From Xenophilus aerolatus (GTDB taxonomy: Bacteria > Pseudomonadota > Gammaproteobacteria > Burkholderiales > Burkholderiaceae_C), in assembly GCA_030418545.1 (NCBI GenBank), contig QAIB01000008.1, positions 1 to 64,000 of the forward strand: a stretch of DNA of 64,000 nt, given 5' to 3'. The notes below the pieces were generated by a model, which saw only the letters and a program-made list of their open reading frames with translations, was not told where the DNA came from and did no database searches. Made by a program: the position numbers and the translations under genes. Below are positions 45,002 to 57,362 of the stretch, one piece after another. Within the stretch, counting starts at the first letter, position 1; each line of letters begins with the position of its first letter.

Positions 45002-45799
45002 TCAGCCGCCGCTGCCCGCGGGCGGCCCGTCGTAGACCACCTCGCGCGTCGCCTGGTACGACAGCGCGAAGCCGATGCCCTGCTGCAGCTCTTCGTTGAG
45101 GTGCGCGATCAGCCCCGCGGTGCGCGCCAGGATGGGCACGCCCTTGAGCGCGGTCACCGGGTAGCCGACGTCCAGCAGCACCGCCGGGATGGCCGCCGAC
45201 ACGTTGAGCTTCAGGTCGCGGCCGATCACTGCCGGCAGCACGGCTTCCACCGCCTCGGCGATGGCGACGAAGCGCCCGCGCACGCCGTTGTCCTGCGCCA
45301 CGCCGAAGAGCGCGTCGACGCGGGCGTCGCGCTCCTTGTGCAGCGGGTGGCCGTAGCCCGGCACCGGCTGGCCCTTCTCGCGCCAGGCGCGCACCACGGC
45401 CTCGGCGGCTGCGGCCAGGTCGCCGTCGCTGCCGGCGCGCTGGTCGACCTCCACGAACATGCGCCCGGCGGTCTCCGAAGCGCCGAGGATCACCGAGCCG
45501 CAGCCCAGGATGCCGGCCGCCACGGCGCCCTGCAGTGCATCGGGCGCGGCGGCCAGCGTCATGCGGCTGGCCTGCACGCTGGGCACCAGCCCGTGCTCGG
45601 CGATGGCGACGAGCGTGGCGTTGAGCACGGCCGAGGCGGCCGGGCCCGGCATCTCGCCGGTGACCAGCAGGTGGAAGTAGTCGGCGAAGCCGATGCGTCC
45701 GATGAGCTCCCTGCTCAGGTCGCGGCCGCGCACCGTGATGCTGTGCGCGTCCGAGGTGGAGATGGCGGTGCGAACCACCGTGGCCTTGCCGATCTTCAT
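45002..45799 (-). CDS. Citryl-CoA lyase-like (citrate synthase superfamily)
   Basis: A 265-residue short member of the citrate synthase superfamily, lacking the large N-terminal domain of citrate synthase. The histidine/proline motif is GYGHPLHKERDARVDALF and the C-terminal segment is LLDVGYPVTALKGVPILARTAGLIAHL in shorter pieces. Such proteins cleave citryl-CoA or citramalyl-like CoA esters to acetyl- or pyruvyl units and an aldehyde or acid. The start at 45799 begins MKIGKATVVRTAI; upstream ATGs add non-conserved residues. A 21-bp perfect inverted repeat lies 77 bp upstream. The three-gene set with Bug and CaiB proteins looks like a CoA-thioester degradation operon. Confidence 0.85.
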   Translation of the reverse strand: MKIGKATVVRTAISTSDAHSITVRGRDLSRELIGRIGFADYFHLLVTGEMPGPAASAVLNATLVAIAEHGLVPSVQASRMTLAAAPDALQGAVAAGILGCGSVILGASETAGRMFVEVDQRAGSDGDLAAAAEAVVRAWREKGQPVPGYGHPLHKERDARVDALFGVAQDNGVRGRFVAIAEAVEAVLPAVIGRDLKLNVSAAIPAVLLDVGYPVTALKGVPILARTAGLIAHLNEELQQGIGFALSYQATREVVYDGPPAGSGG

Positions 45800-45875
45800 G
45801 TTCAGGTCCGTTGCGAATCGGCGCGAACGGTAGCCCATGGGAGCGGCAGTCAGGAAATGATGTTTTTCGATGCTT

Positions 45876-45896
45876 TCGATCGATGCCATCGATCGA
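45876..45896. promoter_or_regulatory. 21-bp perfect inverted repeat, candidate operator
   Basis: TCGATCGAT-GCC-ATCGATCGA, nine-base arms with a three-base spacer, 77-97 bp upstream of the lyase start, in a stretch that is AT-richer than the surroundings. It is a likely binding site for a dimeric regulator, but no regulator gene adjoins this operon. Confidence 0.5.
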
Positions 45897-45944
45897 TAAG
45901 GCCGATCGACGGCGGGAGAGATCACGGCGCCGCGCGCCGCCAGG

Positions 45945-46751
45945 TCAGGTGCCGAAGTCGCGCGCCGCGGATGGCTGGGCGAGGGCCTGCACGCCCCGCA
46001 GCACGTCGCCCACCACGATCACCGAGGGGCTGCCCAGGCCGGAGGCGGCAAGGTCCGCATCCAGCGCGCCCAGCGTGCTCAGCAGTTGCTGCTGGTGCGC
46101 CAGCGTGGCGTGCTGCACCACCGCGACCGGCGTCGACGCCGGCAGGCCGCCGTCGAGCAGGGCGGTGCGGATGTGCGCGGCGCCAGCCACGCCCATGTAG
46201 ACCACCAGCGTCAGCCGGGCATCGCGGGCCGCGGCGGCGAGCTGGCGCCAGTCGGTCGCGTCGTGGCGGGCCCGCTCACCGGCCTTGGCGTGGCCGGTGA
46301 CGAACACCACGCCCTGCGCATGGTCACGATGCGTCAGCGGCACGCCCAGCGCCGTCACCGCGGCCAGGCCGGCGGTGATGCCGTTGACCACCCGGCATTC
46401 GATGCCGGCCTCGCGCAGGTGCTCCACCTCCTCGCCGCCGCGGCCGAAGATGAAGGGGTCGCCGCCCTTGAGGCGCACCACGTGCTCGCCCTCGCGCACG
46501 GCGGTGATCATCAGCTTCTCGATGAAGGCCTGCGGCGTGCTCTTGCATCCGCCGCGCTTGCCCACGTGCACGATGCGCGCGCCGGGGCGTGCCCAGGCCA
46601 GGATCTCGTCGTTGACCAGGTCATCGACGAACAGCACGGTGGACGCCTGGATGGCCTTGACCGCTTTCAGGGTGAGCAGTTCGGGATCGCCGGGGCCGGC
46701 GCCGACGAGGGTGCAGGTGCCCAGGGGCAGGGGGGCGTGGTGCGTGGTCAT
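45945..46751 (-). CDS. cobA: Uroporphyrinogen-III C-methyltransferase
   Basis: A 268-residue SAM-dependent methyltransferase making precorrin-2, the precursor of siroheme. It shows the family blocks LVGAGPGDPELLTLKAVKAI, VHVGKRGGCKS, RLKGGDPFIFGRGGEEVEHL and TPVAVVQHATL-like segments. Siroheme is the cofactor of assimilatory nitrite reductase, which explains its place at the end of the nitrate operon although no nitrite reductase gene is in the window. It is the single-domain CobA form, not the CysG fusion. Its start overlaps the ybiB stop as ATGA. Confidence 0.95.
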   Translation of the reverse strand: MTTHHAPLPLGTCTLVGAGPGDPELLTLKAVKAIQASTVLFVDDLVNDEILAWARPGARIVHVGKRGGCKSTPQAFIEKLMITAVREGEHVVRLKGGDPFIFGRGGEEVEHLREAGIECRVVNGITAGLAAVTALGVPLTHRDHAQGVVFVTGHAKAGERARHDATDWRQLAAAARDARLTLVVYMGVAGAAHIRTALLDGGLPASTPVAVVQHATLAHQQQLLSTLGALDADLAASGLGSPSVIVVGDVLRGVQALAQPSAARDFGT

Positions 46752-47656
46752 GCGAGGCTCGCGAGATGGACGATGTGCCGCACCTGGGCGGCGATGGGTT
46801 CGGGCACCGGCAGCGCACCGGCCAGCACGCGCCGCGTGTAGTCGGCGGTGGTTTCGACGTCGATGGCCGCGGGCAGGCCCGGCACCTCGGCCTGCGTGCC
46901 GGGCGCCTGGGCCTGCAGCACGCAGGGCGCGCCGCGCACGAAGCCGTCGATCTGCGGCGTGCGGCGCGGGTCGCTCACCACCTCGCCCTCGAGCCCGCGC
47001 GAGAGCAGGGCGGTCATGCCCAGCAGTTCGAACAGCTCGGTCATCACGGTGGCGAAGGCCGGGTGCGTGTAGCTGCCCACGATCACCTGCGGGCCGTCGA
47101 CCGGCTGCATGAGCTTGACCACGCTGTGCCCTGCGTTGCGCAGGCCGACGACGCGGCGCACGTCGAGCAGGCGCTTGAGGCCCTGATTCAGCAGCGCCGT
47201 CTCGACCACGACCACCTCGCCGTTTGCTATTTTTTTGATAGCCGCCTGTGCAGGCACATCAAGGGCTGCGAGCACATTCGACGCCGGAACGCGGCTGGAT
47301 TCGGTGGCGCTGCCGTGCACCAGCACCGGCAGCCCTTCGCGCGCCAGCAGCAGTGCCAGCAGAGGCGTGAGCACCGGCAGCTTGCGCGCGCCGTTGTAGC
47401 TGGGCAGCACGACCACGGGCCGGTCGCTGGCGGGCAGTCGGGCCAGGCGCGCATGCGTGGCGTCGAGGAAGCCCGCCATCTCCTGCGTGGTCTCGCCCTT
47501 CACCCGCATGGCCAGGCAGAAGGCGCCCACCTCCAGGTCGGTGACCTGGCCGTCGAGGACCTGGCCGAAGAGGTCGGCCGCCTGCTCGCGCGCGAGCGGC
47601 TTGGCGCCGCGTGCGCCGCGGCCGATGTCCTTGATGTAATGCGCGATGCTGCCCAT
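46748..47656 (-). CDS. ybiB: YbiB/TrpD2-type nucleic-acid-binding protein
   Basis: A 302-residue protein of the YbiB (TrpD2) family, structurally like anthranilate phosphoribosyltransferase but known to bind DNA/RNA rather than to make tryptophan. It begins MGSIAHYIKDIGRGARG, equivalent to the E. coli protein start, and contains LEVGAFCLAMRVKGETTQEM, VVLPSYNGARKLPVLTPLLA and LLDVRRVVGLRNAGHSVVKL. An upstream ATG at 47737 would add 27 residues. A dispersed repeat (47226) is read in frame. It lies between nasA and cobA and is coupled to the latter, so it shares nitrate control. Confidence 0.85.
   Translation of the reverse strand: MGSIAHYIKDIGRGARGAKPLAREQAADLFGQVLDGQVTDLEVGAFCLAMRVKGETTQEMAGFLDATHARLARLPASDRPVVVLPSYNGARKLPVLTPLLALLLAREGLPVLVHGSATESSRVPASNVLAALDVPAQAAIKKIANGEVVVVETALLNQGLKRLLDVRRVVGLRNAGHSVVKLMQPVDGPQVIVGSYTHPAFATVMTELFELLGMTALLSRGLEGEVVSDPRRTPQIDGFVRGAPCVLQAQAPGTQAEVPGLPAAIDVETTADYTRRVLAGALPVPEPIAAQVRHIVHLASLA
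47226..47274 (+). repeat. Dispersed repeat, copy C, inside ybiB
   Basis: GCTAT-N7-ATAGC at 47226-47242 followed by CGCCTGTGCAGGC and GGGCTGCGAGC. It is more divergent than copies A and B but keeps the seven-base spacer and length. It is read in frame on the minus strand within ybiB, giving residues around VPAQAAIKKIA. Confidence 0.6.
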
Positions 47657-47758
47657 GGGGGTGCCGATTGTCCCGCAGGCCTTATGCCCGTTCGCGGGGT
47701 CGCTTATGCCGTCCGGCGGGGGAATGCGGGCATTCATGGCGCTGCCGTCCAGAGCTTC

Positions 47759-50593
47759 TCAGGCCGCCTCGGGCAGGGACGCCGGCACGAGGCGCACCAT
47801 GCGCTGCAGCTCGGGCACGCAGGAGCCGCAGTTGGTGCCGCACTGGAGCGCGCCCTGCAGCTGCGCAAGCCGCGCCGCGTCGCTGCCGGCGCAGCGCGCC
47901 AGCGTGCCGGCGATGGCGGTCTCGCTCACGCCGAAGCAGCTGCACACCGTCTTGCCGCGCGCCGCGACCGCGACCGGCGCCGTGGGCTGGAAGGACAGCA
48001 GCTGCCGGCCGAAGTCCTGGGCCGGCAACTGGTCCTGCAGCAGGGCCTTGATCCACGCCTCGGCGCGCGTGTCGCCGGCCAACAGCAGGCCCACCACGTG
48101 GGCCGCGTCGCCGGCTGCCTGCCCGCGCTGCAGGCGCACCGCGCGGCGCTGCTGGCGCGCGGGGTCGGCGTACCGCAGGGTGTCGCCCTCGCCCAGACCC
48201 AGCAGGCGCTCGATCTCGGCCAGCACCGCGTCTGGCGGCGCCTGGTGCGCCGCGGCCCGCAGCAGCACGCCGGTGGGCTGCGCCGCACCGTCCTTCAGCG
48301 CGCCTGGCGCGCCGAAGGGGACGCAACTGAAGAAGGGCAGCGACTCGACCTGTGCACGCAGCGCCTCGCGCGCCGCCAGTGCCTGCCCGGTTGGCAGCCA
48401 GGCCATGCCCAGCATCGTCCAGCGCAGCTCGGCGCGGGCGATGCGCACGGCCGTGTGCTTGAGCTCGGGCTGCTTGGAGACGGGGCAGTGCTCGGGCGTG
48501 GTGAGGCCGTTGACGCCGGCCATCGGCCTGCCGTCGCTGCCGCGGCCGCGGCCGCCGATGAACTCGGGGCCCCAGTGCATGGCCATGAAGGCCTGCGAGG
48601 GCGCCAATTCGGTGCTGGCGGCCACCGGCACCACCAGGCGGCCGTGGCGTGAAGTGATCTCGACCAGTTCGCCTTCCGCGTAGCCGCGCCGCGCCAGGTC
48701 CTGCGGGTGCATCTGCAGCACCGGTTCGGGCACGTGGCCGAAGAGGCGCCCCAGCGTGCCGGTGCGGCTCATGCCGTGCCATTGGTCGCGCAGCCGGCCC
48801 GTGTTGAGCGAGAAGGGGTACCGGTCCTCGCGCGGCTCAGCCACCGGGCGGTAAGGCGTCGCGGCGAAGCGGGCGCGGCCGTCGGGGGTGGGGAACAGCC
48901 CGTCTTCGTAGAGCCGTGCGCGGCCCTCGCTGGCGTGTTCCGGCCGGGGCCACTGCTGCGGCGCGGCTTCGAGCAGGCCGTAGCTCAGGCCGGTGATATC
49001 CAGGTCGCGCCCGCGCGTCGACTCGCGGTGCTCGTTCCACACCTGCTCGGGGTGCTCGTAGGGGAAGAGCGTGCCGGTGCCCAGCGCGCGCCGTGGGAGC
49101 CGCGCCTCGAGCCGCCGCGCGAAGTCGACGCCGATGGCCCAGTCGTGCCGTGCCGCGCCGGCCGCCGGCACGGCTGCGCGCACGCGCGAGATGCGGCGCT
49201 CGCTGTTGGTCACGGTGCCTTCCTTCTCGCCCCAGGTGGTCGCGGGCAGCAGCAGGTCGGCGAAGGCGCAGGTGGCGGTGGTCGCGAAGGCCTCCTGCAC
49301 GACCACGAACTCGGCGCGCTCGAGCGCACGGCGCACCGTCGCCTGGTCGGGCATCGACTGGGCGGGGTTGGTGCAGGCGATCCACAGCGCCTTGATCTCG
49401 CCGTCGGCGGCGGCGCGGAACATCTCGATCGCGCTCCTGCCGGGCACGGCAGGGATGTCCGCCACGCCCCACGTCGCCGCCACCTCGGCGCGGTGCGCGG
49501 CATTCGCCATGTCGCGGTGCGCGGGCAGCAGGTTCGACAGGCCGCCCACCTCGCGCCCGCCCATCGCATTGGGCTGGCCGGTGAGCGAGAAGGGCCCCGC
49601 GCCGGGGCGGCCGATGTGCCCGGTCGCCAAGTGCAGGTTGATGAGCGCTGCGTTCTTCGCCGTGCCGCTGGAGGACTGGTTCAGCCCCATGCAGTACAGG
49701 CTCAGCGTGGCGGGCGAGGCGGCGAAGAGGCGCGTGGCCTGCAGCAGGTCGTCCACCGTGATGCCGCAGGTCCGCGCGACTGTCTCGGGCGTGCAGTCCG
49801 CGACGAGGGCGGCCAGGGCCTCGAAGCCGGTGGTGTGCGCGGCGATGTAGCCCGGATTCGTCCAGCCCTCGCGCAGCATCAGGTGCAGCATGCCGTGGAA
49901 GAGCATCACGTCGGTGCCCGGCTGCAGCGGCAGGTGCAGGTCGGCGATCTCGCAGGTGTCGGTGCGGCGCGGGTCGGCGACCACGATCCGCATCGCCGGG
50001 TTGGCGCGCTTCGCTTCCTCAATGCGGCGGAACAGGATGGGATGCGCCCAGGCCGTGTTGCTGCCGACGATGAAGAGGCAGTCGGCATGCTTCACGTCGT
50101 CGTAGCAGGCCGGCGGCGCGTCGGCGCCCAGCGTCTGCTTGTAGCCGGCCACCGCGCTGCTCATGCACAGCCGCGAGTTGGTGTCGAGGTTGTTGGTGCC
50201 GATGAGGCCCTTGGCCAGCTTGTTGAAGACGTAGTAGTCCTCGGTCAGCAGCTGGCCCGAGAGATAGAAGCCGACCGCGTCGGGGCCGTGCGTGCGGATG
50301 ATCCCGGCGAAGCGGTCCGCGGCGTGGTCCAGCGCCTCGTCCCAGCCGATCGGCGTCGGCGCGGTGCCGCGCGTGCTGCGCTGCATCGGCTGCAGCAGGC
50401 GCGTCTGGCGCGTGACCTCGGCCGAGGCCGTGAGGTGCAGCGTCGAGCCCTTGGTGCACAGCCGTCCGAAGTTTGCCGGGTGCTCGGGGTCGCCGCGCAC
50501 GCCGGTGATCTGGGCGCCCTGCGATTCGATGACCACGCCACATCCGACCCCGCAATAGGGGCAGGTAGAGCGGGTTTCGTTGGTGTTCGCCAT
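47759..50593 (-). CDS. nasA: Assimilatory nitrate reductase, catalytic subunit
   Basis: A 944-residue molybdopterin enzyme that reduces nitrate to nitrite in the cytoplasm. The N-terminal [4Fe-4S] cysteines are C11, C14, C18 and C46, followed by the molybdopterin domains (PNAMGGREVGGLSNLLPAHR; HWGPEFIGGRGRGSDGRPMA). The last 60 residues form a BFD-like [2Fe-2S] domain with C884, C886, C922 and C925, a form typical of NasA/NarB-fusions that take electrons from a separate flavoprotein. Starts at 50593 and 50614 are both open; the first gives the cysteine cluster at once. The adjacent FAD protein is the likely electron donor. Confidence 0.95.
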   Translation of the reverse strand: MANTNETRSTCPYCGVGCGVVIESQGAQITGVRGDPEHPANFGRLCTKGSTLHLTASAEVTRQTRLLQPMQRSTRGTAPTPIGWDEALDHAADRFAGIIRTHGPDAVGFYLSGQLLTEDYYVFNKLAKGLIGTNNLDTNSRLCMSSAVAGYKQTLGADAPPACYDDVKHADCLFIVGSNTAWAHPILFRRIEEAKRANPAMRIVVADPRRTDTCEIADLHLPLQPGTDVMLFHGMLHLMLREGWTNPGYIAAHTTGFEALAALVADCTPETVARTCGITVDDLLQATRLFAASPATLSLYCMGLNQSSSGTAKNAALINLHLATGHIGRPGAGPFSLTGQPNAMGGREVGGLSNLLPAHRDMANAAHRAEVAATWGVADIPAVPGRSAIEMFRAAADGEIKALWIACTNPAQSMPDQATVRRALERAEFVVVQEAFATTATCAFADLLLPATTWGEKEGTVTNSERRISRVRAAVPAAGAARHDWAIGVDFARRLEARLPRRALGTGTLFPYEHPEQVWNEHRESTRGRDLDITGLSYGLLEAAPQQWPRPEHASEGRARLYEDGLFPTPDGRARFAATPYRPVAEPREDRYPFSLNTGRLRDQWHGMSRTGTLGRLFGHVPEPVLQMHPQDLARRGYAEGELVEITSRHGRLVVPVAASTELAPSQAFMAMHWGPEFIGGRGRGSDGRPMAGVNGLTTPEHCPVSKQPELKHTAVRIARAELRWTMLGMAWLPTGQALAAREALRAQVESLPFFSCVPFGAPGALKDGAAQPTGVLLRAAAHQAPPDAVLAEIERLLGLGEGDTLRYADPARQQRRAVRLQRGQAAGDAAHVVGLLLAGDTRAEAWIKALLQDQLPAQDFGRQLLSFQPTAPVAVAARGKTVCSCFGVSETAIAGTLARCAGSDAARLAQLQGALQCGTNCGSCVPELQRMVRLVPASLPEAA

Positions 50594-50601
50594 GGCCAGA
50601 A

Positions 50602-51918
50602 TCACGTTTCGCATTCGGCCGCCAGCGCACGTAGCGCCTGGGCTCGCGCCAAACTCGTCACAGTCGTTACGATCTCCGCCACGGGTGCAGCCGGCGGCGC
50701 CGGCGGGCCGAACATGAGCTGGTCGCGCAGATCCGCCACGTTGCGGCGCTCGCGCATCAGGTCCAGGTACCAGCTGCCTTCGGCGGCATCGCCATACAGG
50801 CACACGCCCACCAGCCGGTCGTCCTGGAGCACCAGCTTGCGGTAGATGCCGCCGGCCGGATCGCGCAGCACGATCGTCTCGCTGCCTTCACCGCCCATGA
50901 AGTCGCCAGCCGAGAACAGTTCGATGCCCGTCACCTTCAGCCGCAGCGGCGTGAGCGAGCCGCCGTAGCGGCCGATGCCCATCTGCGCCAGGTGGGTGGC
51001 CGCGACGCGGCCCTGCTCGTAGAGCGGCGCGACCAGGCCGTAGGCGATGCCGCGGTGCTGCGCGCATTCGCCCACGGCGTAGATGCGTGGATCGGTCACG
51101 GTCTGCAGCGTGTCGTCGACCACGACGCCGCGTTCGCAGTGCAGGCGCATCTGCTTCGCCAGCGCCACGTTGGGACGGATGCCCACGGCCATCACCACGA
51201 GGTCGGCGTGGACCTCACTGCCATCGCTGAAGCGCACGGCCCGCACTCGGCCGCCGCCGTCGCCCTGCAGCGATTCGGTGTGCGTGCGCAGCCGAAAGGC
51301 GATGCCCCGCCCCTCCAGCGCACGCTGCAGCAGCGCGCCGGCCTCGGCATCGAGCTGCTTGTCCATGGGCCAGGCGTTGGTGTGCACCACCGTCACCTGC
51401 ATGCCGCGCTGCGCGAGGCCGTTGGCGGCCTCGAGCCCGAGCACGCCACCACCGATCACGACCGCGCGGCGCTGCGTGCGGGCGGCCGCGATCATGGCCT
51501 CGGTGTCGGCGATGTCGCGGTAGGCGATCACGCCCTGCAGGTCGGCCCCCGGCACGGGCAGCATGAAGGGGCTGGAGCCGGTGGCCAGCAGCAGGCGGTC
51601 GTAGGCCGCCTCGACGACGCGGCCGTCGTCAGCCTCGGCCCGCACCGTGCGGCGGGTGCGGTCCACCGCGCGCACGCGGCAGCCCGTGTGCAGCGTGATG
51701 CCGTGCCGCACGTACCAGTCCCGCGGGTGCAGCACGATCTGCTCGATCGTCTTCTCGCCCGCCAGCACCGGCGACAGCAGGATGCGGTTGTAGTTGGGGT
51801 GCGGCTCGGCGCCGAAGACGGTGATCTCGTACAGCCCGGGCGCGAGGCGCAGAAGCTCCTCGACCGTGCGCATGCCGGCCATGCCGTTGCCGACGACGAC
51901 GAGCTTCATCTTGCGCAT
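50602..51918 (-). CDS. FAD/NAD(P)-dependent oxidoreductase, nitrate reductase electron-transfer subunit
   Basis: A 438-residue pyridine-nucleotide-disulfide-type flavoprotein resembling the N-terminal third of NirB and the reductase subunits of assimilatory nitrate reductases. The FAD site is LVVVGNGMAGMRTVEELL, the NAD(P)H site is AVVIGGGVLGLEAANGLAQ, and the second FAD motif is IYAVGECAQH. It lacks the siroheme and Fe-S parts of NirB. Its place between a globin and nasA suggests it passes electrons to NasA, and perhaps to the globin as in other nitrate operons. Start at 51918 or 51909 cannot be separated. Confidence 0.88.
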   Translation of the reverse strand: MRKMKLVVVGNGMAGMRTVEELLRLAPGLYEITVFGAEPHPNYNRILLSPVLAGEKTIEQIVLHPRDWYVRHGITLHTGCRVRAVDRTRRTVRAEADDGRVVEAAYDRLLLATGSSPFMLPVPGADLQGVIAYRDIADTEAMIAAARTQRRAVVIGGGVLGLEAANGLAQRGMQVTVVHTNAWPMDKQLDAEAGALLQRALEGRGIAFRLRTHTESLQGDGGGRVRAVRFSDGSEVHADLVVMAVGIRPNVALAKQMRLHCERGVVVDDTLQTVTDPRIYAVGECAQHRGIAYGLVAPLYEQGRVAATHLAQMGIGRYGGSLTPLRLKVTGIELFSAGDFMGGEGSETIVLRDPAGGIYRKLVLQDDRLVGVCLYGDAAEGSWYLDLMRERRNVADLRDQLMFGPPAPPAAPVAEIVTTVTSLARAQALRALAAECET

Positions 51919-51949: not shown

Positions 51950-52378
51950 TCAGGGCGCAGTGGGCGTCGAGGCCTGCTGCTGCGCTTCGATCATCACGCC
52001 GGACAGCAGCGCATAGGCCTCGCTCCACGCCGCCTTCACGTCGGGGGTGAAGGCGGGGCCGAGGCCGCGCTCCAGCGTGTCGAGCAGCGCCTGCCCGACC
52101 ACCGGGTAATGCGCCGGCTCGGCGCCATAGGCCACATGCCGCTGCCCGAGCTTCTGCGCGGCCGGCACGATGGTCTCGAGCCGCGTGAGGCCGTTGACCA
52201 CCATCGCGAGCATGGCCATGAGCTTGCGGCCCTGTTCGGCCATGTCGCCGGTGAAGAGCGGCCGCACCTGCGGCGCGAGTTCGAACAGCCGCGCGTAGAA
52301 GATCTCCGCCGCCTGCGGCGCAATGGGCGCCACCTGCGCGAAGCTTTGCTGGACCAGGGTGATCTGCTGCGGGGTCAT
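51950..52378 (-). CDS. Single-domain bacterial globin
   Basis: A 142-residue globin like Vitreoscilla hemoglobin and the globin part of flavohemoglobin. It begins MTPQQITLVQQSFAQVAPIA, has the CD region FELAPQVRPLFTGDMAEQG and the proximal histidine in QRHVAYGAEPAHYPVVGQAL with VGQALLDTLERGLG following. GGAGG lies in front of the ATG. Single-domain globins here usually remove nitric oxide formed during nitrate or nitrite reduction. It sits between nrtD and the FAD oxidoreductase in the nitrate operon, which supports that role. Confidence 0.92.
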   Translation of the reverse strand: MTPQQITLVQQSFAQVAPIAPQAAEIFYARLFELAPQVRPLFTGDMAEQGRKLMAMLAMVVNGLTRLETIVPAAQKLGQRHVAYGAEPAHYPVVGQALLDTLERGLGPAFTPDVKAAWSEAYALLSGVMIEAQQQASTPTAP

Positions 52379-52419
52379 GGGGCCTCCGGATCGGGGGGTG
52401 AGGAGGGGGCGCGGCGCGC

Positions 52420-53226
52420 TCAGGCCGCCTGCTTCTCGACGTGCGCCTGGCGCGTGTAGAGGAAGTCGATCACGGCCTTGCGGTAGTGCACGTAGTCGCG
52501 GTCCTCGGCCAGCTCCACGCGGTTGCGCGGGCGCGGCAGGTCCACGCGCAGCACCTCGCCGATGGTGGCGGCCGGGCCGTTGGTCATCATCACGATCTTG
52601 TCCGAGAGCAGCACCGCCTCGTCCACGTCGTGCGTGACCATCACGACGGTGCTCTGGGTCTTCTGCACGATGGCGAGCAGCTCGTCCTGCAGCTTGGCGC
52701 GCGTGAGCGCATCCAGCGCGCCGAAGGGCTCGTCCATCAGCAGCACCTTGGGCTCCATCGCCAGCGCACGGGCGATGCCCACGCGCTGCTTCATGCCGCC
52801 CGAAATCTCGCCGGGGCGCTTGTGCGTGGCGTGCGTGAGGCCCACCAGCGCCAGCGCCTCGTCGGTGCGCTGCTTGAGCTGCGCCTTGCTCTCGCTGCCA
52901 CTGAAAACGCGCTCGACGCCCAGGTAGATGTTCTCGAAGCAGGTCAGCCACGGCAGCAGCGAATGGTTCTGGAACACCACTGCGCGTTCCGGACCGGGGC
53001 CGGCGATCTCCTTGTTGGCGCACAGCAGCACGCCCTGCGTGGGCCGGGTCAGGCCGGCGATCAGGTTCAGCAGCGTGCTCTTGCCGCAGCCCGAGTGGCC
53101 GATCAGCGCCACGAATTCGCCCTTGGCCACGTCGAGGTCGATGTCGCGCAGCGCGACGAAGCGACCCTTGGGCGTCTTGAACGCCTGCTCGACGTTCTGG
53201 ATCTGGATGTACTTGGAATCGGTCAT
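52420..53226 (-). CDS. nrtD: Nitrate ABC transporter ATP-binding protein
   Basis: A 268-residue ABC ATPase that powers nitrate uptake with the neighbouring permease. Walker A is GHSGCGKST, the signature is ISGGMKQR, and Walker B is LLMDEPFGALD followed by VMVTHDVDEAV. The NrtD-type ending RNRVELAEDRDYVHYRKAVI is also present. AGGAGC precedes the ATG at 53226. A near-palindromic element of about 100 bp lies between this gene and nrtB upstream. Confidence 0.95.
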   Translation of the reverse strand: MTDSKYIQIQNVEQAFKTPKGRFVALRDIDLDVAKGEFVALIGHSGCGKSTLLNLIAGLTRPTQGVLLCANKEIAGPGPERAVVFQNHSLLPWLTCFENIYLGVERVFSGSESKAQLKQRTDEALALVGLTHATHKRPGEISGGMKQRVGIARALAMEPKVLLMDEPFGALDALTRAKLQDELLAIVQKTQSTVVMVTHDVDEAVLLSDKIVMMTNGPAATIGEVLRVDLPRPRNRVELAEDRDYVHYRKAVIDFLYTRQAHVEKQAA

Positions 53227-53374: not shown

Positions 53375-54307
53375 TCAGGACTTCACTTCCTCGAACGTGA
53401 AGGCCGATGCGAGCTTGATCAGTGCGTACTCGAGCACGAGGCCGACGATGCCGATGACGAAGATCGCGATGATGATGTTCTTGACGTTGAGGTTGTTCCA
53501 CTCGTCCCACACCCAGAAGCCGATGCCCACGCCGCCGGTCAGCATCTCGGCCGCGACGATCACCAGCCAGGCGGTGCCGACGGCCAGGCGCACGCCGGTG
53601 AGCATGTAGGGCAGCACGGCGGGGAAGAGGATCTTGGTGACGATCTTCCATTCGGACAGGTTGAGCACGCGCGCCACGTTCATGTAGTCGCTGGGCACGC
53701 GCTGCACGCCGACCGCGGTGTTGATGACCATGGGCCAGATCGAGCAGATGAAGATGGTCCAGATGGCGGCCGGGTTGGCGCCCTTGAAGACCAGCAGGCC
53801 GATCGGCAGCCAGGCCAGCGGCGAGACCGGCCGCAGCAGGCTGATGAGCGGGTTGAACATGCGCGACAGGAACGAGAAGCGCCCGATCGCGAAGCCCGCC
53901 GGAATGCCCACCAGCGCCGCCAGGCCGAAGCCCAGCGCCACGCGCTTGAGCGAGGACAGCACGTTCCAGCCCACGCCCTGGTCGTTCGGGCCGTTGCTGT
54001 AGAACGGGTCGCTGAACACCGTCACCGCCTGCTTCCAGGTCTCGGCCGGGCCGGGGAAGGATCCGCCGCTCTGCAGCGACACGGCCTCCCAGATCAGCAG
54101 CAGCAGGCCGAAGCCCATGGCCGGCGGCAGCACGCGCAGCCAGAGGCCGCTGAAGTCCCGCGTCGCCTTCTGCACGGGGGCGGCGGCCGGGGCGGTGGGC
54201 AGGGCCGCCGGGGGCACGGCCTTGAGCGAAGGCTTGGCCGGTGTGGCGGCAGGCATGTCGGTGCGGGTGTCCGCATCGAGCGGCAGGTGGAAGACGGCGG
54301 CGACCAT
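53375..54307 (-). CDS. nrtB: Nitrate ABC transporter permease
   Basis: A 310-residue permease with a proline/alanine-rich N-terminal tail of about 50 residues and then six membrane segments. NrtB-type features are FKGANPAAIWTIFICSIWPM, GVQRVPSDYMNVARVLNLSE (coupling loop region) and EMLTGGVGIGFWVWDEWNN. It forms the membrane channel for the importer made with NrtA and NrtD. The ATG at 54307 follows CGGAG. The stop is followed by the long palindrome. Confidence 0.95.
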   Translation of the reverse strand: MVAAVFHLPLDADTRTDMPAATPAKPSLKAVPPAALPTAPAAAPVQKATRDFSGLWLRVLPPAMGFGLLLLIWEAVSLQSGGSFPGPAETWKQAVTVFSDPFYSNGPNDQGVGWNVLSSLKRVALGFGLAALVGIPAGFAIGRFSFLSRMFNPLISLLRPVSPLAWLPIGLLVFKGANPAAIWTIFICSIWPMVINTAVGVQRVPSDYMNVARVLNLSEWKIVTKILFPAVLPYMLTGVRLAVGTAWLVIVAAEMLTGGVGIGFWVWDEWNNLNVKNIIIAIFVIGIVGLVLEYALIKLASAFTFEEVKS

Positions 54308-54343: not shown

Positions 54344-55594
54344 TCAGCCCATCTGGACCTTGAAGGACTCGGCGTACTTCTTCGGGTCCTTGCCGTCCCA
54401 GACCACGCCGTCCATCAGCTTGCTGCTGCGCATGGGGCTGGCGGGCACGGGCGTCTTGGTGGCGGCAGCGGCCTGCTTGTAGAGGTCGATGCGGTTGATC
54501 TCGGTGGCGACCTTCAGGTAGTCGGGATGTTCCTTGAGCAGGCCCCAGCGCTTGTGCTGGGTGAGGAACCACATGCCGTCCGAAAGGTACGGGAAGGTCA
54601 CGGCGCCGTCGGCGTAGAACTTCATGTGGTTGGGGTCGTCCCAGCTCTTGCCCAGGCCGTTGGTGTAGCGGCCCAGGATGCGCTGGTTGATGGCGTCGAC
54701 GCTGGTGTTGACGTAGCTCTTGTCGGCGATGGTCTCGGCCATCTTGTTCTTGTTCTGCAGGCCGGCGTCGATCCACTTGCCGGCCTCGAGGATGGCGGCC
54801 GTCACGGCGCGTGCCGTGTTGGGGTACTTCTTCACGAAGTCGCCGGTGGTGCCCAGCACCTTCTCGGGGTGGTCCTTCCAGATGTCCTGCGTGGTGATGG
54901 CCGTGATCCCGATGCCGTCCATGATGGCGCGCTGGCCCCAGGGCTCGCCCACGCAGAAGCCGTCCATGTTGCCCACGCGCATGTTGGCGACCATCTGCGG
55001 CGGCGGCACCACGATCGCCTTCGCGTCCTTGAGCGGGTTGATGCCGCTGGCGGCCAGCCAGTAGTAGAGCCACATGGCGTGCGTGCCGGTGGGGAAGGTC
55101 TGCGCGAAGGTGTATTCGCGCTTGTCGCTGGCCATCAGCTTGGCGAGCGAGGGACCGTCGACGGCGCCCTTGTCGGCGAGCTTCTTCGACAGGGTGATGG
55201 CCTGGCCGTTGTTGTTGAGGGTCATCAGCACGGCCATGTCCTTCTTGGGGCCGCCGATGCCGAGGTGCACGCCGTACACCAGGCCGTAGAGCACGTGGGC
55301 GAAGTCCAGTTCGCCGTTGACCAGCTTGTCGCGCACGCCGGCCCAGCTCGCCTCCTTGCTGGGCACGATCTTCACGCCGTACTTCTTGTCGATGCCCAGC
55401 ACCGAGGCCATGACGACGCTGGCGCAGTCGGTCAGCGGGATGAAGCCGATCTTGACCTCCTCCTTCTCGGGCTTGTCGGAGCCCTGCGCCCAGACGGCGG
55501 CGCGCAGGGCGGGGTCGATGCCGACGGCGCCGGCGGCCGCGGCCTTGAGCACGGTGCGGCGGCTGAGCTTGCTGGGGATGAGGGGTTCGGTCAT
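54344..55594 (-). CDS. nrtA: Nitrate ABC transporter substrate-binding protein
   Basis: A 416-residue nitrate-binding protein of the NrtA/CmpA family, exported by the twin-arginine route: KLSRRTVLKAAAAGAVG near residues 9-25. The body starts VKIGFIPLTDCASVVMASVL, and RVGNMDGFCVGEPWGQRAIM with QTFPTGTHAMWLYYWLAASG are the ligand-pocket landmarks of this family. It is the first gene after the NasR-controlled leader; GTTGGCCCC directly precedes the ATG, with no clear Shine-Dalgarno. Confidence 0.95.
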   Translation of the reverse strand: MTEPLIPSKLSRRTVLKAAAAGAVGIDPALRAAVWAQGSDKPEKEEVKIGFIPLTDCASVVMASVLGIDKKYGVKIVPSKEASWAGVRDKLVNGELDFAHVLYGLVYGVHLGIGGPKKDMAVLMTLNNNGQAITLSKKLADKGAVDGPSLAKLMASDKREYTFAQTFPTGTHAMWLYYWLAASGINPLKDAKAIVVPPPQMVANMRVGNMDGFCVGEPWGQRAIMDGIGITAITTQDIWKDHPEKVLGTTGDFVKKYPNTARAVTAAILEAGKWIDAGLQNKNKMAETIADKSYVNTSVDAINQRILGRYTNGLGKSWDDPNHMKFYADGAVTFPYLSDGMWFLTQHKRWGLLKEHPDYLKVATEINRIDLYKQAAAATKTPVPASPMRSSKLMDGVVWDGKDPKKYAESFKVQMG

Positions 55595-55640
55595 GGGGCC
55601 AACTCCAGTCGAGGAAGGAAAGGGGCGAAGCGGGAGACGA

Positions 55641-55717
55641 AAAAACAAAAAAGGCGTCCTCAGCGCGCAGGAGCCGTCGCATGTCGCGAGCAGCCCTTGC
55701 GGGTCGAGGACGCCTTT
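55641..55717 (-). terminator. Leader terminator (attenuator) of the nitrate operon
   Basis: On the minus strand AAAGGCGTCCTC (plus 55706-55717) pairs perfectly with GAGGACGCCTTT (plus 55650-55661) around a 44-base loop and is followed by TTTTTTGTTTTTT. It lies in the nrtA leader, 56 bp before the start codon. Its 5' arm is shared with the second antiterminator hairpin, so the two structures exclude each other. Confidence 0.9.
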
Positions 55718-55752
55718 GTCCGGGTCGGTCGGCCGCACCCGCCTTTGGATGC
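55708..55752 (-). promoter_or_regulatory. ANTAR-type tandem hexaloop antiterminator
   Basis: Two hairpins in the nitrate-operon leader RNA. P1 is GCATCC-AAAGGC-GGGTGC (plus 55735-55752, six pairs with one G-U). P2 is GGAC-AAAGGC-GTCC (plus 55708-55721). Both loops are AAAGGC, with A at position 1 and G at position 4 as known for ANTAR-protein targets; the linker is 13 bases. P2 overlaps the terminator's 5' arm. NasR bound to these hairpins should prevent termination when nitrate is present. Confidence 0.85.
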
Positions 55753-55792
55753 CGCCTGCCTGGGACCGTCGCCGGTCCATGGCGGTGTCGGT

Positions 55793-55808
55793 TGCAAAGC
55801 CCGTGCCA
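55793..55808 (-). promoter_or_regulatory. Sigma-54 promoter of the nitrate operon
   Basis: The minus strand reads TGGCACGGGCTTTGCA, which fits the -24/-12 consensus TGGCACG-N4-TTGCA exactly. Transcription should begin near 55782, giving a leader of about 188 bases that includes the antiterminator and terminator. Confidence 0.85.
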
Positions 55809-55828
55809 GGGTGTGGTCGCCTAGGTTT

Positions 55829-55878
55829 GCTATGAAACCAATAGCTACTCGCGCAAGCGGGTTGCGGGCTGCAGGCCG
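55829..55878 (+). repeat. Dispersed repeat, copy D, upstream of the nitrate promoter
   Basis: GCTAT-N7-ATAGC at 55829-55845 followed by CGCGCAAGCGGG and GGGCTGCAGGCC. It retains the seven-base spacer and the CTG-N2-GGCC end of the family. It lies between the sigma-54 promoter and the candidate NtrC site. Confidence 0.6.
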
Positions 55879-55911
55879 ATTTGGCCTGAAAGCGCGCCGG
55901 GCGAAGCCGCA

Positions 55912-55926
55912 GCACGGAAGTTGTGC
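55912..55926. promoter_or_regulatory. Candidate NtrC enhancer site
   Basis: GCAC-N7-GTGC, the conserved core of NtrC binding sites, about 137 bp upstream of the predicted start of transcription. A second, weaker match (GCACCA-N3-GGGCGC) lies at 55930-55944. Distance and partner promoter both fit nitrogen control. Confidence 0.55.
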
Positions 55927-55963
55927 GGCGCACCAATCGGGCGCCGGATTCGCTCACACCTTC

Positions 55964-57253
55964 TCAGTGCCCGGGCAGGAACTCCGCCATCGCGAGCACC
56001 GATTCGGCCACCTCCACCAGACGGCGGTTCTGGTTCATCGCGGTCTGGCGCAGCATCTTGTGCGCCTCTTCCTCGCTGAGGCGCCGGTGCGCCATCAGCA
56101 GGCCCTTGGCGCGCTCGACCACCTTGCGTTCGTTGAGGCTGGCGCGCACGGTGGCGAGCTCGTCGCTCATCGCCTGCAGGCGGCGCGACTGCTCCTGCAC
56201 CATGTCGAGCACCGAGCGCTCGAGGTGCCGGCCATAGCGCGAGCCGGCGGTGCCCGAGGCATCGGCGAGTTCGTCGACCGCTGCTGCCGGCGCCGCATCG
56301 AAGAAGCCGGCCGGCATCGGCGCGTCGGCGTCCTTGCCTTGCGCCTGCAGGGAGGCGAGCAGCGTCTCGTATTGCGCGAGCTCCGTGCGCGCCTGCGCGG
56401 TCTTGCGTTCGCACAGGCTGCGCAGCTCGTCGGCGAGGCGATCTTCCAGGAGGCGCATGGCATCGATGCGGCGCGTGCAGCAGTCGAACCACACCGGGCC
56501 GAGGTCGGGCACCAGCGTGCCGCCGGGTGCCGCACAGCCGATGCGCCGCAGGCGTTCCAGTTCGGCGGTCCCGGCACCGTCCTGCAGCTGCTGCCAGTGC
56601 GCCCGCAACGCCTCGTCGGCGAACTCGGTGAAGACCTCGAAGCAGCGCTCCTGCGACTCGATCAGGTGCAGCCACTGCTGGCGCTGGGCGTCGTCGTTGC
56701 GCCCGCGCGTGAAGGCGGCGGCGCCGAAGGCGCGCTCCTGGCCGGCGAGTTCCTTGCCCTGCATGAAGTTGAACATTGCCACCAACCAGCGCGAGATCTG
56801 CGGGTCGGTCGCGCCGTCGGCGGCCTCGAAAACCAGCGCCAGCAGCCCCGCGATCAGCTTGACGAAGGCGGCGGTGGCCTCGGCGGGCGGCATCTTCAGG
56901 GTCGCGATGCGCGCGCGCAGCGCGGGCAGGCCGTCCAGCCCGGGCAGCACCCAGGCCACGCGGCTGAACAGGCGCGCGCCGTTGCCCAGGTGCTGCGGCT
57001 CGTGCTGCAGCGCATCCAGCGCCGTGCGCACTTCCTGCGTGACGGTCTCGCAGGCGGCGATCTGCTGCAGGCGTTGTTCCGCGAAGCGTGTGCCGCCGGA
57101 ACCGATGAAGACGTTGGAGATGCCGCGCTCCTTCTGCAGCGCGTGCACCAGGCGGCCGATGGTGCCGACCAGCGCGCTGGTGCGGCTGAGCTGGTCGAGT
57201 TCGTCGATCTCGCAACGGCGGGCGGCGACGAGGAAGCTGAGGCCGGAGGTCAT
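55964..57253 (-). CDS. nasR: Nitrate-sensing antiterminator NasR
   Basis: A 429-residue RNA-binding regulator. The N-terminal NIT domain ([20 protein letters not shown] near residues 28-47, with the arginine expected to bind nitrate, and further helices to about 300) senses nitrate or nitrite; the C-terminal ANTAR domain ([20 protein letters not shown] and [19 protein letters not shown]) binds the hexaloop RNA. It lies directly upstream of the leader it should control and is transcribed in the same direction, as in Klebsiella. The start at 57253 omits a non-conserved upstream extension. Confidence 0.93.
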
Positions 57254-57362
57254 GGAAAGGTCATGCAATCGTGGAGCGCGGCGCCCGTCGCGCGGTCGCT
57301 GTTCCCGCCGTGCAAATTCCATGCCCCGACTTGGGGCGGGCACCGCTCCCTACACTAGCCGC

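Follow-up and report, generated by a model that had tools for sequence, protein, structure and literature searches.

A predicted NasR-type ANTAR antitermination leader before an assimilatory nitrate operon and its resemblance to narK RNA and P11

Introduction

Between a nasR gene and a run of nitrate-assimilation genes, the window (the whole stretch of DNA analysed, 64,000 nucleotides) carries a short leader, and this raises the question of whether one such region could make an operon answer to both nitrogen limitation and nitrate. In Klebsiella oxytoca, NasR is reported to bind the two-hairpin nasF RNA with nitrate, readthrough being 52% with nitrate versus 5% without it (PMC7496416). Dual-hairpin ANTAR leaders at nitrogen genes of many bacteria, with Burkholderia named, were predicted in 2012 (PMC3369931), and a 2017 paper called nasR mainly gammaproteobacterial (PMC5424462). 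An earlier note on this DNA, made from the sequence alone, had read the region as a dual nitrogen and nitrate switch in a betaproteobacterium.

Results

The leader reads, in the direction of the operon, as an NtrC-type palindrome, a sigma-54 box, a series of hairpins and a predicted terminator (Table 1). The box lies on the 3' side of nasR, 155 nt from its stop. These elements had been described in the earlier note, and the description held: the box TGGCACG-N4-TTGCA and the GCAC-N7-GTGC palindrome, centred 137 nt from the predicted start, were located where it had placed them, the two hairpins with the same AAAGGC hexaloops (A1, G4) were confirmed base for base, and the 12-bp terminator with its T6GT6 tail was found to overlap the second hairpin with its 5' arm. 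Domain matches likewise confirmed a NIT- and ANTAR-containing nasR directly upstream. A further hairpin, P0, is absent from that description.

Table 1. Positions of the leader elements and neighbouring genes in the window
Feature	Position	Strand	Basis or remark
nasR	55964-57343	-	NIT PF08376, 203 bits; ANTAR PF03861, 71.4 bits
Leader as a whole	55926-55640	-	between nasR and nrtA
NtrC-type palindrome GCAC-N7-GTGC	55926-55912	-	centre ~137 nt 5' of predicted start; sequence
Sigma-54 promoter TGGCACGGGCTTTGCA, TGGCACG-N4-TTGCA	55808-55793	-	sequence
Predicted transcription start	~55781	-	judged from motifs
Hairpin P0, GGACCG-GCGA-CGGTCC	55778-55763	-	at +4 of predicted RNA
Hairpin P1, 6 bp	55752-55735	-	hexaloop AAAGGC (A1, G4; loop 55746-55741); closing C-G
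Hairpin P2, GGAC-AAAGGC-GTCC, 4 bp	55721-55708	-	predicted antiterminator; A1/G4 (loop 55717-55712)
Intrinsic terminator hairpin	55717-55650	-	-44.2 kcal/mol; inner hairpin enclosed
Terminator arms, 12 bp, AAAGGCGTCCTC with GAGGACGCCTTT	55717-55706 with 55661-55650	-	
Terminator tail T6GT6	55652-55640	-	sequence
nrtA-like nitrate substrate-binding protein	54344-55594	-	PF13379, 341.2 bits; first gene behind leader
nrtB nitrate ABC permease	53375-54307	-	TIGR01183, 247.5 bits, above cut-off
nrtC nitrate ABC ATPase	52420-53226	-	TIGR01184, 339.9 bits, above cut-off
Globin (flavohaemoglobin-type N-terminal domain)	51950-52420	-	PF00042, 61 bits on ORF 51950-53023
nasC-like electron-transfer subunit (N-terminal half of NirB)	50602-51918	-	TIGR02374, 443.6 bits, positions 1-396 of 794
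nasA assimilatory nitrate reductase	47759-50803	-	PF00384, 247.9 bits
ybiB	46748-47737	-	NF006005, 372.5 bits, cut-off 185
Uroporphyrinogen-III C-methyltransferase (sirohaem synthesis)	45945-46751	-	TIGR01469, 274.3 bits, above cut-off

The 5' arm of the terminator begins at the first base of the P2 loop and runs on through the 3' arm of P2; sequence, covariation and folding agree that P2 and the terminator would exclude each other. Predicted folding of the leader RNA favours P0, P1 and the terminator at -78.3 kcal/mol, against -61.3 kcal/mol when P2 is forced, so that termination is the predicted default and P2 would need something to hold it. By position and family, we infer that this holder is NasR. 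A simple terminator scan of 55560-55990 returned none; the scan takes loops of 3-8 nt only, and the terminator in the window encloses an inner hairpin. Sigma-70-like sites were likewise not found in this interval by a simple scan. Matches of the region to other Rfam families (mir-1181, CRISPR-DR12, S6-S18 and P33) lay far under their gathering scores and were rejected as chance.

The leader has the marks of a dual-hairpin ANTAR target, namely two 6-nt loops with A1 and G4, closing C-G pairs and, for both P1 and P2, stems of 3 bp or more that are kept in relatives, and the gene of a cognate ANTAR protein adjoins it. This protein combines NIT and ANTAR domains in one chain, aligns across both with the solved NasR of K. 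oxytoca (4AKK), and was the sole match at E<=0.001 when its own 5.8 Mb genome was searched for ANTAR domains. Its nearest named relative among the matches listed, the NasR of Comamonadaceae bacterium ALPHA2B, is 95% identical, which bears out the betaproteobacterial host proposed earlier; the next named proteins among the matches listed, from Xenophilus and Variovorax, are mostly ~64-70% identical, and the named genomes may omit records very near the window's genome.

Behind the leader lies a predicted operon whose first gene is nrtA-like. The earlier note had placed a globin gene and ybiB in this run, and both are present (PF00042; NF006005). The globin stretch scores 83.7 bits against NF009805, under the cut-off, and the 5' limit of its gene is approximate. 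For the nasC-like gene, the TIGR02374 score lies under the curated cut-off for full-length NirB. The nasA ORF falls under the cut-offs of the NasA and NasC models, a formate dehydrogenase model (also under cut-off) scoring higher; this ORF overlaps nasC, and its true start is likely downstream. A citryl-CoA lyase-like gene (45002-45925) follows the sirohaem methyltransferase gene in the same direction. The gene run 45002-51918 holds only the N-terminal half of NirB, nitrite/sulfite reductase domains being encoded on other contigs (C22, C45).

To place the leader among its relatives, the search for NasR-like proteins covered 200 order-level genomes, 399 family-level genomes and named genomes (at least 80 loci). 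We used the 11 longest order-level matches, the family-level matches with a fetchable 3' side and 80 named loci among those listed; three loci with too short a flank (L138, L173, L247) and one copy of the window (L010) were left out, and 186 loci were kept, near-duplicates included. A strict layout, defined as a sigma-54 box with a pair of C(A[AC]NGNN)G loops behind it at the right distances, occurs in 133 of these 186 loci (near-duplicates included) versus none of 3720 shuffled regions, whereas the box alone is found in ~1.0% of shuffled regions. The failures comprise 35 loci without a box and 18 with a box but without two such loops. Under an earlier test that also demanded stems, 54 of 109 loci had qualified, a total in which the window stands twice, compared with 0.375 expected.

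A covariance model, R1, was built solely from leaders behind NasR genes, the window being one of its 83 source leaders. At E<=0.01 it matches 34 of the 53 strict-layout failures, among them L015, where the element lies upstream of NasR, and L150, where it lies ~650 nt behind NasR; neither the strict layout nor an R1 match at this threshold was found in 19 of the 186 loci. With these 34 matches, the notion of a leaderless group of ~40%-identical NasR proteins was mostly rejected. In a second NasR group (L129-L165, ~40% identical) the leaders are weaker or differently spaced, and several are visible only with R1. In the 5.8 Mb genome of the window, R1 has a single strong match, the leader itself (E 2.3e-11, the window being among the sources of R1), the next having an E-value of 0.199.

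NasR-like proteins occur in 98 of the 399 genomes sampled from the window's GTDB family (E<=1e-40, partial matches included). Either the strict layout or an R1 match was seen at named loci of, for example, Variovorax, Xenophilus, Polaromonas, Hydrogenophaga and Azoarcus; gammaproteobacterial examples are Nitrincola (L238), Billgrantia (L242) and, with a weak match, Aquisalimonas (L240).

Covariation was assessed on the 133 strict-layout leaders. In 4 of them the 3' arm of the terminator could not be recognised, and once near-duplicates (>=90% identical over the blocks) had been taken out, 83 were left. Since the anchors fix A1 and G4 of the loops, the closing C-G pairs and the terminator end GCCNTT, only other pairs were counted. 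P1 pairs 3-9 covary strongly in this set: pair 5 is G-C in 29 leaders and C-G in 28, and is paired in 72 of 83 versus 35.9 in shuffles. In the terminator, pairs b+10 to b+14 covary. Position 3 of the P2 loop and its terminator partner (b+2/e-3) form C-G in 60 leaders and A-T in 19 and are unpaired in 4, that is, 79 of 83 are paired versus 51.4 in shuffles. This pair exists in the terminator only and is therefore direct evidence for a second partner of the loop base. On a MAFFT alignment of the same 83 leaders, double-changed cells over 8 pairs numbered 68, whereas shuffles gave 18.6 and slid structures at most 17; the shuffle tests are inflated by relatedness, and the slid-structure control is free of that.

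Paired cells make up 94.9% in P1 and 99.1% in P2. Because its pairs are nearly invariant, P2 as a helix cannot be proven by covariation, and the support for this predicted hairpin comes from conservation together with the covariation of its loop with the terminator. The comparison with relatives that the earlier note had proposed came out in favour of its reading: the hexaloops are conserved, and P1 and the terminator covary, the P2 pairs being too invariant to do so.

The upstream part of the leader is also conserved. A perfect GCAC-N7-GTGC is found in 55 of the 80 leaders whose upstream sequence reaches 60 nt or more, versus 0.65 expected in shuffles. Both parts of a putative NtrC-controlled sigma-54 promoter, the -24/-12 box and the upstream palindrome, are thus retained, and RpoN and a full NtrC are encoded in the window's own genome.

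The distance from the sigma-54 box to the P1 loop is 43-51 nt in 32 of the 133 leaders and ~20-32 nt in the rest. All 32 long-spacing leaders (near-copies included) carry a P0 stem, which starts 14-17 nt below the -12 element, at +2 to +5. The stem reads RGACC/GGTCY in 26 of the 32; the others differ, some with compensating changes (AGGCC/GGCCT, AGGTCC/GGACCT), and the loops range from tetraloops (GCGA, GAAA, TTCG) to hexaloops (GACGAA, AACGAA). A stem of at least 5 bp is present in 32 of 32, but by the shuffles 13.75 would already be expected to have one, so that the constant place and motif outweigh mere presence. In a tree built from 80 of 83 NasR proteins, the other 3 having been skipped, all 18 rows with the P0 layout stand on one side of a single branch with support 99/99, and these proteins form a clade provided that the root falls across that branch from them. 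The P0 layout marks the window's group, that is, Variovorax/Xenophilus and the window's genus.

P0 occupies the spot held by P1 in other leaders, which suggests descent from P1, and it is most likely either a retained former P1 or a stabiliser of the 5' end. Stable tetraloops include GCGA, GAAA, GCAA and TTCG. The presence of these very tetraloops in several P0 hairpins, and the start of P0 at +2 to +5, argue for a 5'-end RNA stabiliser outside the switch, and we regard this as a serious candidate that falls just short of being probable, given that the shared place with P1 points instead to descent from P1. We think it unlikely that P0 shares in NasR binding, so that NasR would choose between P0-P1 and P1-P2 and P0 would tune the switch. 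The loop distances are alike (22-29 nt for P0-P1 and 27-31 nt for P1-P2), an A1/G4 hexaloop, AACGAA, caps P0 at 2 of the 32 loci (L178 and L182), and the NasT-type loci L095 and L299 carry three A1/G4 loops; however, at the remaining 30 loci the P0 loop either has no A1/G4 or is of another size than a hexaloop, the loop of the window being GCGA, or GGCGAC without the inner pair.

The two NasT-type leaders, at ~1530-1600 of L095 and ~1549-1640 of L299, lie behind NasT-type ANTAR genes, and their three A1/G4 hexaloops are 28 nt apart in L095. Such leaders suggest that three-hairpin forms are old or arose more than once.

The Rfam family narK RNA (RF03032) covers the window leader at 55807-55707, with the same place and layout, at 19.8 bits, under its gathering score of 43.2. 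Two other places in the same genome outscore it; the own-genome search with this model is uninformative because the window scores at background. RF00625 (P11) gave no match at E<=1 at the window's own locus (L010), its gathering score of 70 not being reached. In the 399 family-level genomes, 83 had an RF03032 match at E<=0.01 and none was above the gathering score. Of the best 30 loci, 9 follow NasR, 20 follow a different ANTAR gene of the same orientation, and one (L092) is without an identified partner, the ORF taken as its upstream gene having no Pfam match. The 20 NasT-type ANTAR genes directly 5' of these loci have a receiver domain above cut-off in 14 cases, a weak one in 2 and none matched in 4. 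Downstream, 7 of 10 tested genes 3' of NasT-type leaders gave weak matches to SsuA substrate-binding proteins and 3 matched nothing.

Positions 1 to ~25 of the RF03032 model read as a sigma-54 promoter. Its consensus contains a sigma-54 box, a P1 loop AACGGC and a P2 sequence with the loop AAAGAC, but the model pairs P1 alone and stops before the terminator. About a third of it is probably untranscribed DNA, a promoter counted as RNA. When 15 NasR loci were compared with RF03032 and RF00625, 13 matched one or both at E<=1, none at gathering score, and the window's own locus and L213 matched neither.

In 274 class-level genomes, RF00625 had matches in 10, one of them (L290) above cut-off. All ten loci combine a sigma-54 box with a T tail, the P2 loop being AAAGGC in 9 and AACGGC in 1; at L295 the second A1/G4 loop was not found. 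Six of the ten are near a NasR or NasT match, and four, L290 included, have none within ~1.5 kb. R1 recovered all 40 fetched loci (the 30 best RF03032 and the 10 RF00625 loci) at E<=1e-5, 9 of them being NasR loci, R1's own source class and in some cases the same places. From these results we concluded that there is one element: the narK RNA of RF03032 and the P11 of RF00625 look like the NasR leader.

NfiR, which its authors call a P11 homologue and which its discoverers held to be Pseudomonas-specific (PMC6606865), is joined to this element through that homology statement, and P11 itself through its Rfam model. As reported for Pseudomonas stutzeri, the nfiR promoter has an NtrC footprint and NfiR is lost without ntrC; without rpoN its expression is lowered, not abolished, and its 5' end was mapped 29 nt downstream of the sigma-54 box (PMC6606865). 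By analogy, these data would speak partly for and partly against the sigma-54 step at the window.

In the 200 order-level genomes, R1 found 101 elements in 74 genomes. Elements occur in 63 of the 84 genomes with an ANTAR match versus 11 of the 116 without one (p 3.7e-22), the ANTAR list coming from a NasR query that may miss ANTAR proteins and a few of the genomes having also supplied R1 leaders; in 21 of the 84 genomes with an ANTAR match no R1 element was found. Within 10 kb of an ANTAR match lie 65 of the 101 elements (38 directly behind it on the same strand), and 36 do not. Taken with the gene neighbourhoods, the partner of the element is predicted to be a NasR or NasT-type ANTAR protein. 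NasT antitermination in a nirBD leader was reportedly described in a 2012 Pseudomonas paper. Several leaders occur in one genome in G156 (three), G171, G133, G027 and G043, which points to small nitrate regulons.

Discussion

By its sequence, the window element is a NasR-type ANTAR antitermination leader, and this kind of system, the NasR-type dual-hairpin leader, is already known. We consider it very probable, from sequence and from analogy with known systems, that it forms a two-signal switch before the assimilatory nitrate operon. Under nitrogen limitation, phosphorylated NtrC would bind near 55919 and sigma-54 RNA polymerase would start near 55781, as the motifs suggest. Without nitrate, the new RNA would fold into the strong terminator, with the P2 loop in its 5' arm, and transcription would stop after ~140 nt. 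When nitrate or nitrite is present, NasR would, judging from its family, free its ANTAR domains through the NIT domain; these would hold the A1/G4 loops of P1 and P2 and keep P2 out of the terminator, and with P2 held the polymerase would read into nrtABC-globin-nasC-nasA-ybiB. The dual-switch reading offered earlier is thus supported by the conserved layout, the NtrC palindrome, covariation, the NIT and ANTAR domains, RpoN and NtrC, from which we infer its function.

The published descriptions of K. oxytoca nasF and NasR (PMC7496416, PMC3369936, PMC5424462) share with the window a NIT-ANTAR NasR and an assimilatory nitrate operon and, as described there, two A1/G4 hexaloop hairpins, a P2 that overlaps the terminator, and Ntr control. 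Unlike nasF, the window has a betaproteobacterial host and the third hairpin P0. Compared with the Klebsiella gene order, its run has a globin gene and ybiB and no nitrite reductase. EutV leaders, as described in PMC3369931, have A1/G4 dual hairpins and a P2 antiterminator in common with the window, but their signal and genes differ. NasT-type nitrate antitermination is described for Paracoccus denitrificans, for example (PMC5424462), and in the GTDB family of the window an ANTAR gene of the NasT type stands directly 5' of 20 among the 30 best RF03032 leaders; the partner there is a receiver-ANTAR protein, whereas that of the window is the one-component NasR. The ten RF00625 loci share the sigma-54 box, the T tail and a P2-type loop with the window, and the nfiR promoter has an NtrC footprint (PMC6606865), but P11 and NfiR are filed as small RNAs, P11 being described as a regulator of the nirB/nirD/nasC operon (PMC12080996).

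This filing raises the alternative that the main product is the ~140-nt terminated RNA, acting in trans as claimed for NfiR and P11, and that attenuation of the operon is secondary. RF00625 and the NasR leaders do look like one element, and NfiR is reported to act on nifD mRNA (PMC6606865). We nevertheless hold this to be quite unlikely, since it is the attenuator that covaries, 65 of the 101 elements have an ANTAR gene nearby, and a P11-linked worm effect was reportedly not reproduced by another group (PMC11942167). Least credible of all is a simple sigma-54/NtrC promoter with a terminator behind it that is under no control, the hexaloops being chance and NasR acting elsewhere: the P2 stem is indeed just 4 bp and nearly invariant, but the box with two spaced A1/G4 loops recurs across NasR loci and in none of the shuffles, the P2 loop covaries with the terminator arm, and the single ANTAR match of the genome adjoins its single strong element.

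The dual-switch reading, preferred here, could be widened to a single ancient sigma-54/ANTAR leader (narK RNA, P11 and, by homology, NfiR, with NasR or NasT-type partners) that controls nitrate assimilation across beta- and gammaproteobacteria, whose terminated RNA is active in trans, so that every such nas operon, that of the window among them, would also emit a nitrogen-starvation RNA, P0 serving the free RNA in Variovorax-like bacteria. We think this whole picture improbable, if somewhat less so than a leader acting chiefly in trans. In a literature search of incomplete coverage, the terms 'narK RNA', 'narK motif' and RF03032 were found in no paper, and an earlier unification of narK RNA and P11 may exist; a search on P11 within the same coverage gave no pairing with narK RNA or NasR.

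Three points add to the known system: Variovorax-like bacteria have the extra hairpin P0, narK RNA and P11 (with NfiR, through its stated homology) are joined to the NasR/NasT leader, and NasR is spread broadly in the family of the window. NasR-like proteins appear to be common in that GTDB family, compared with the mainly gammaproteobacterial nasR of PMC5424462. For the Rfam family narK RNA, whose name offers no mechanism, one is suggested, and the family would be joined to P11, an RNA disputed in studies of worm inheritance, and by homology to NfiR. If narK RNA, P11 and NfiR are one attenuator, then the levels of their short RNAs should track nitrogen limitation, through NtrC, and the absence of nitrate.
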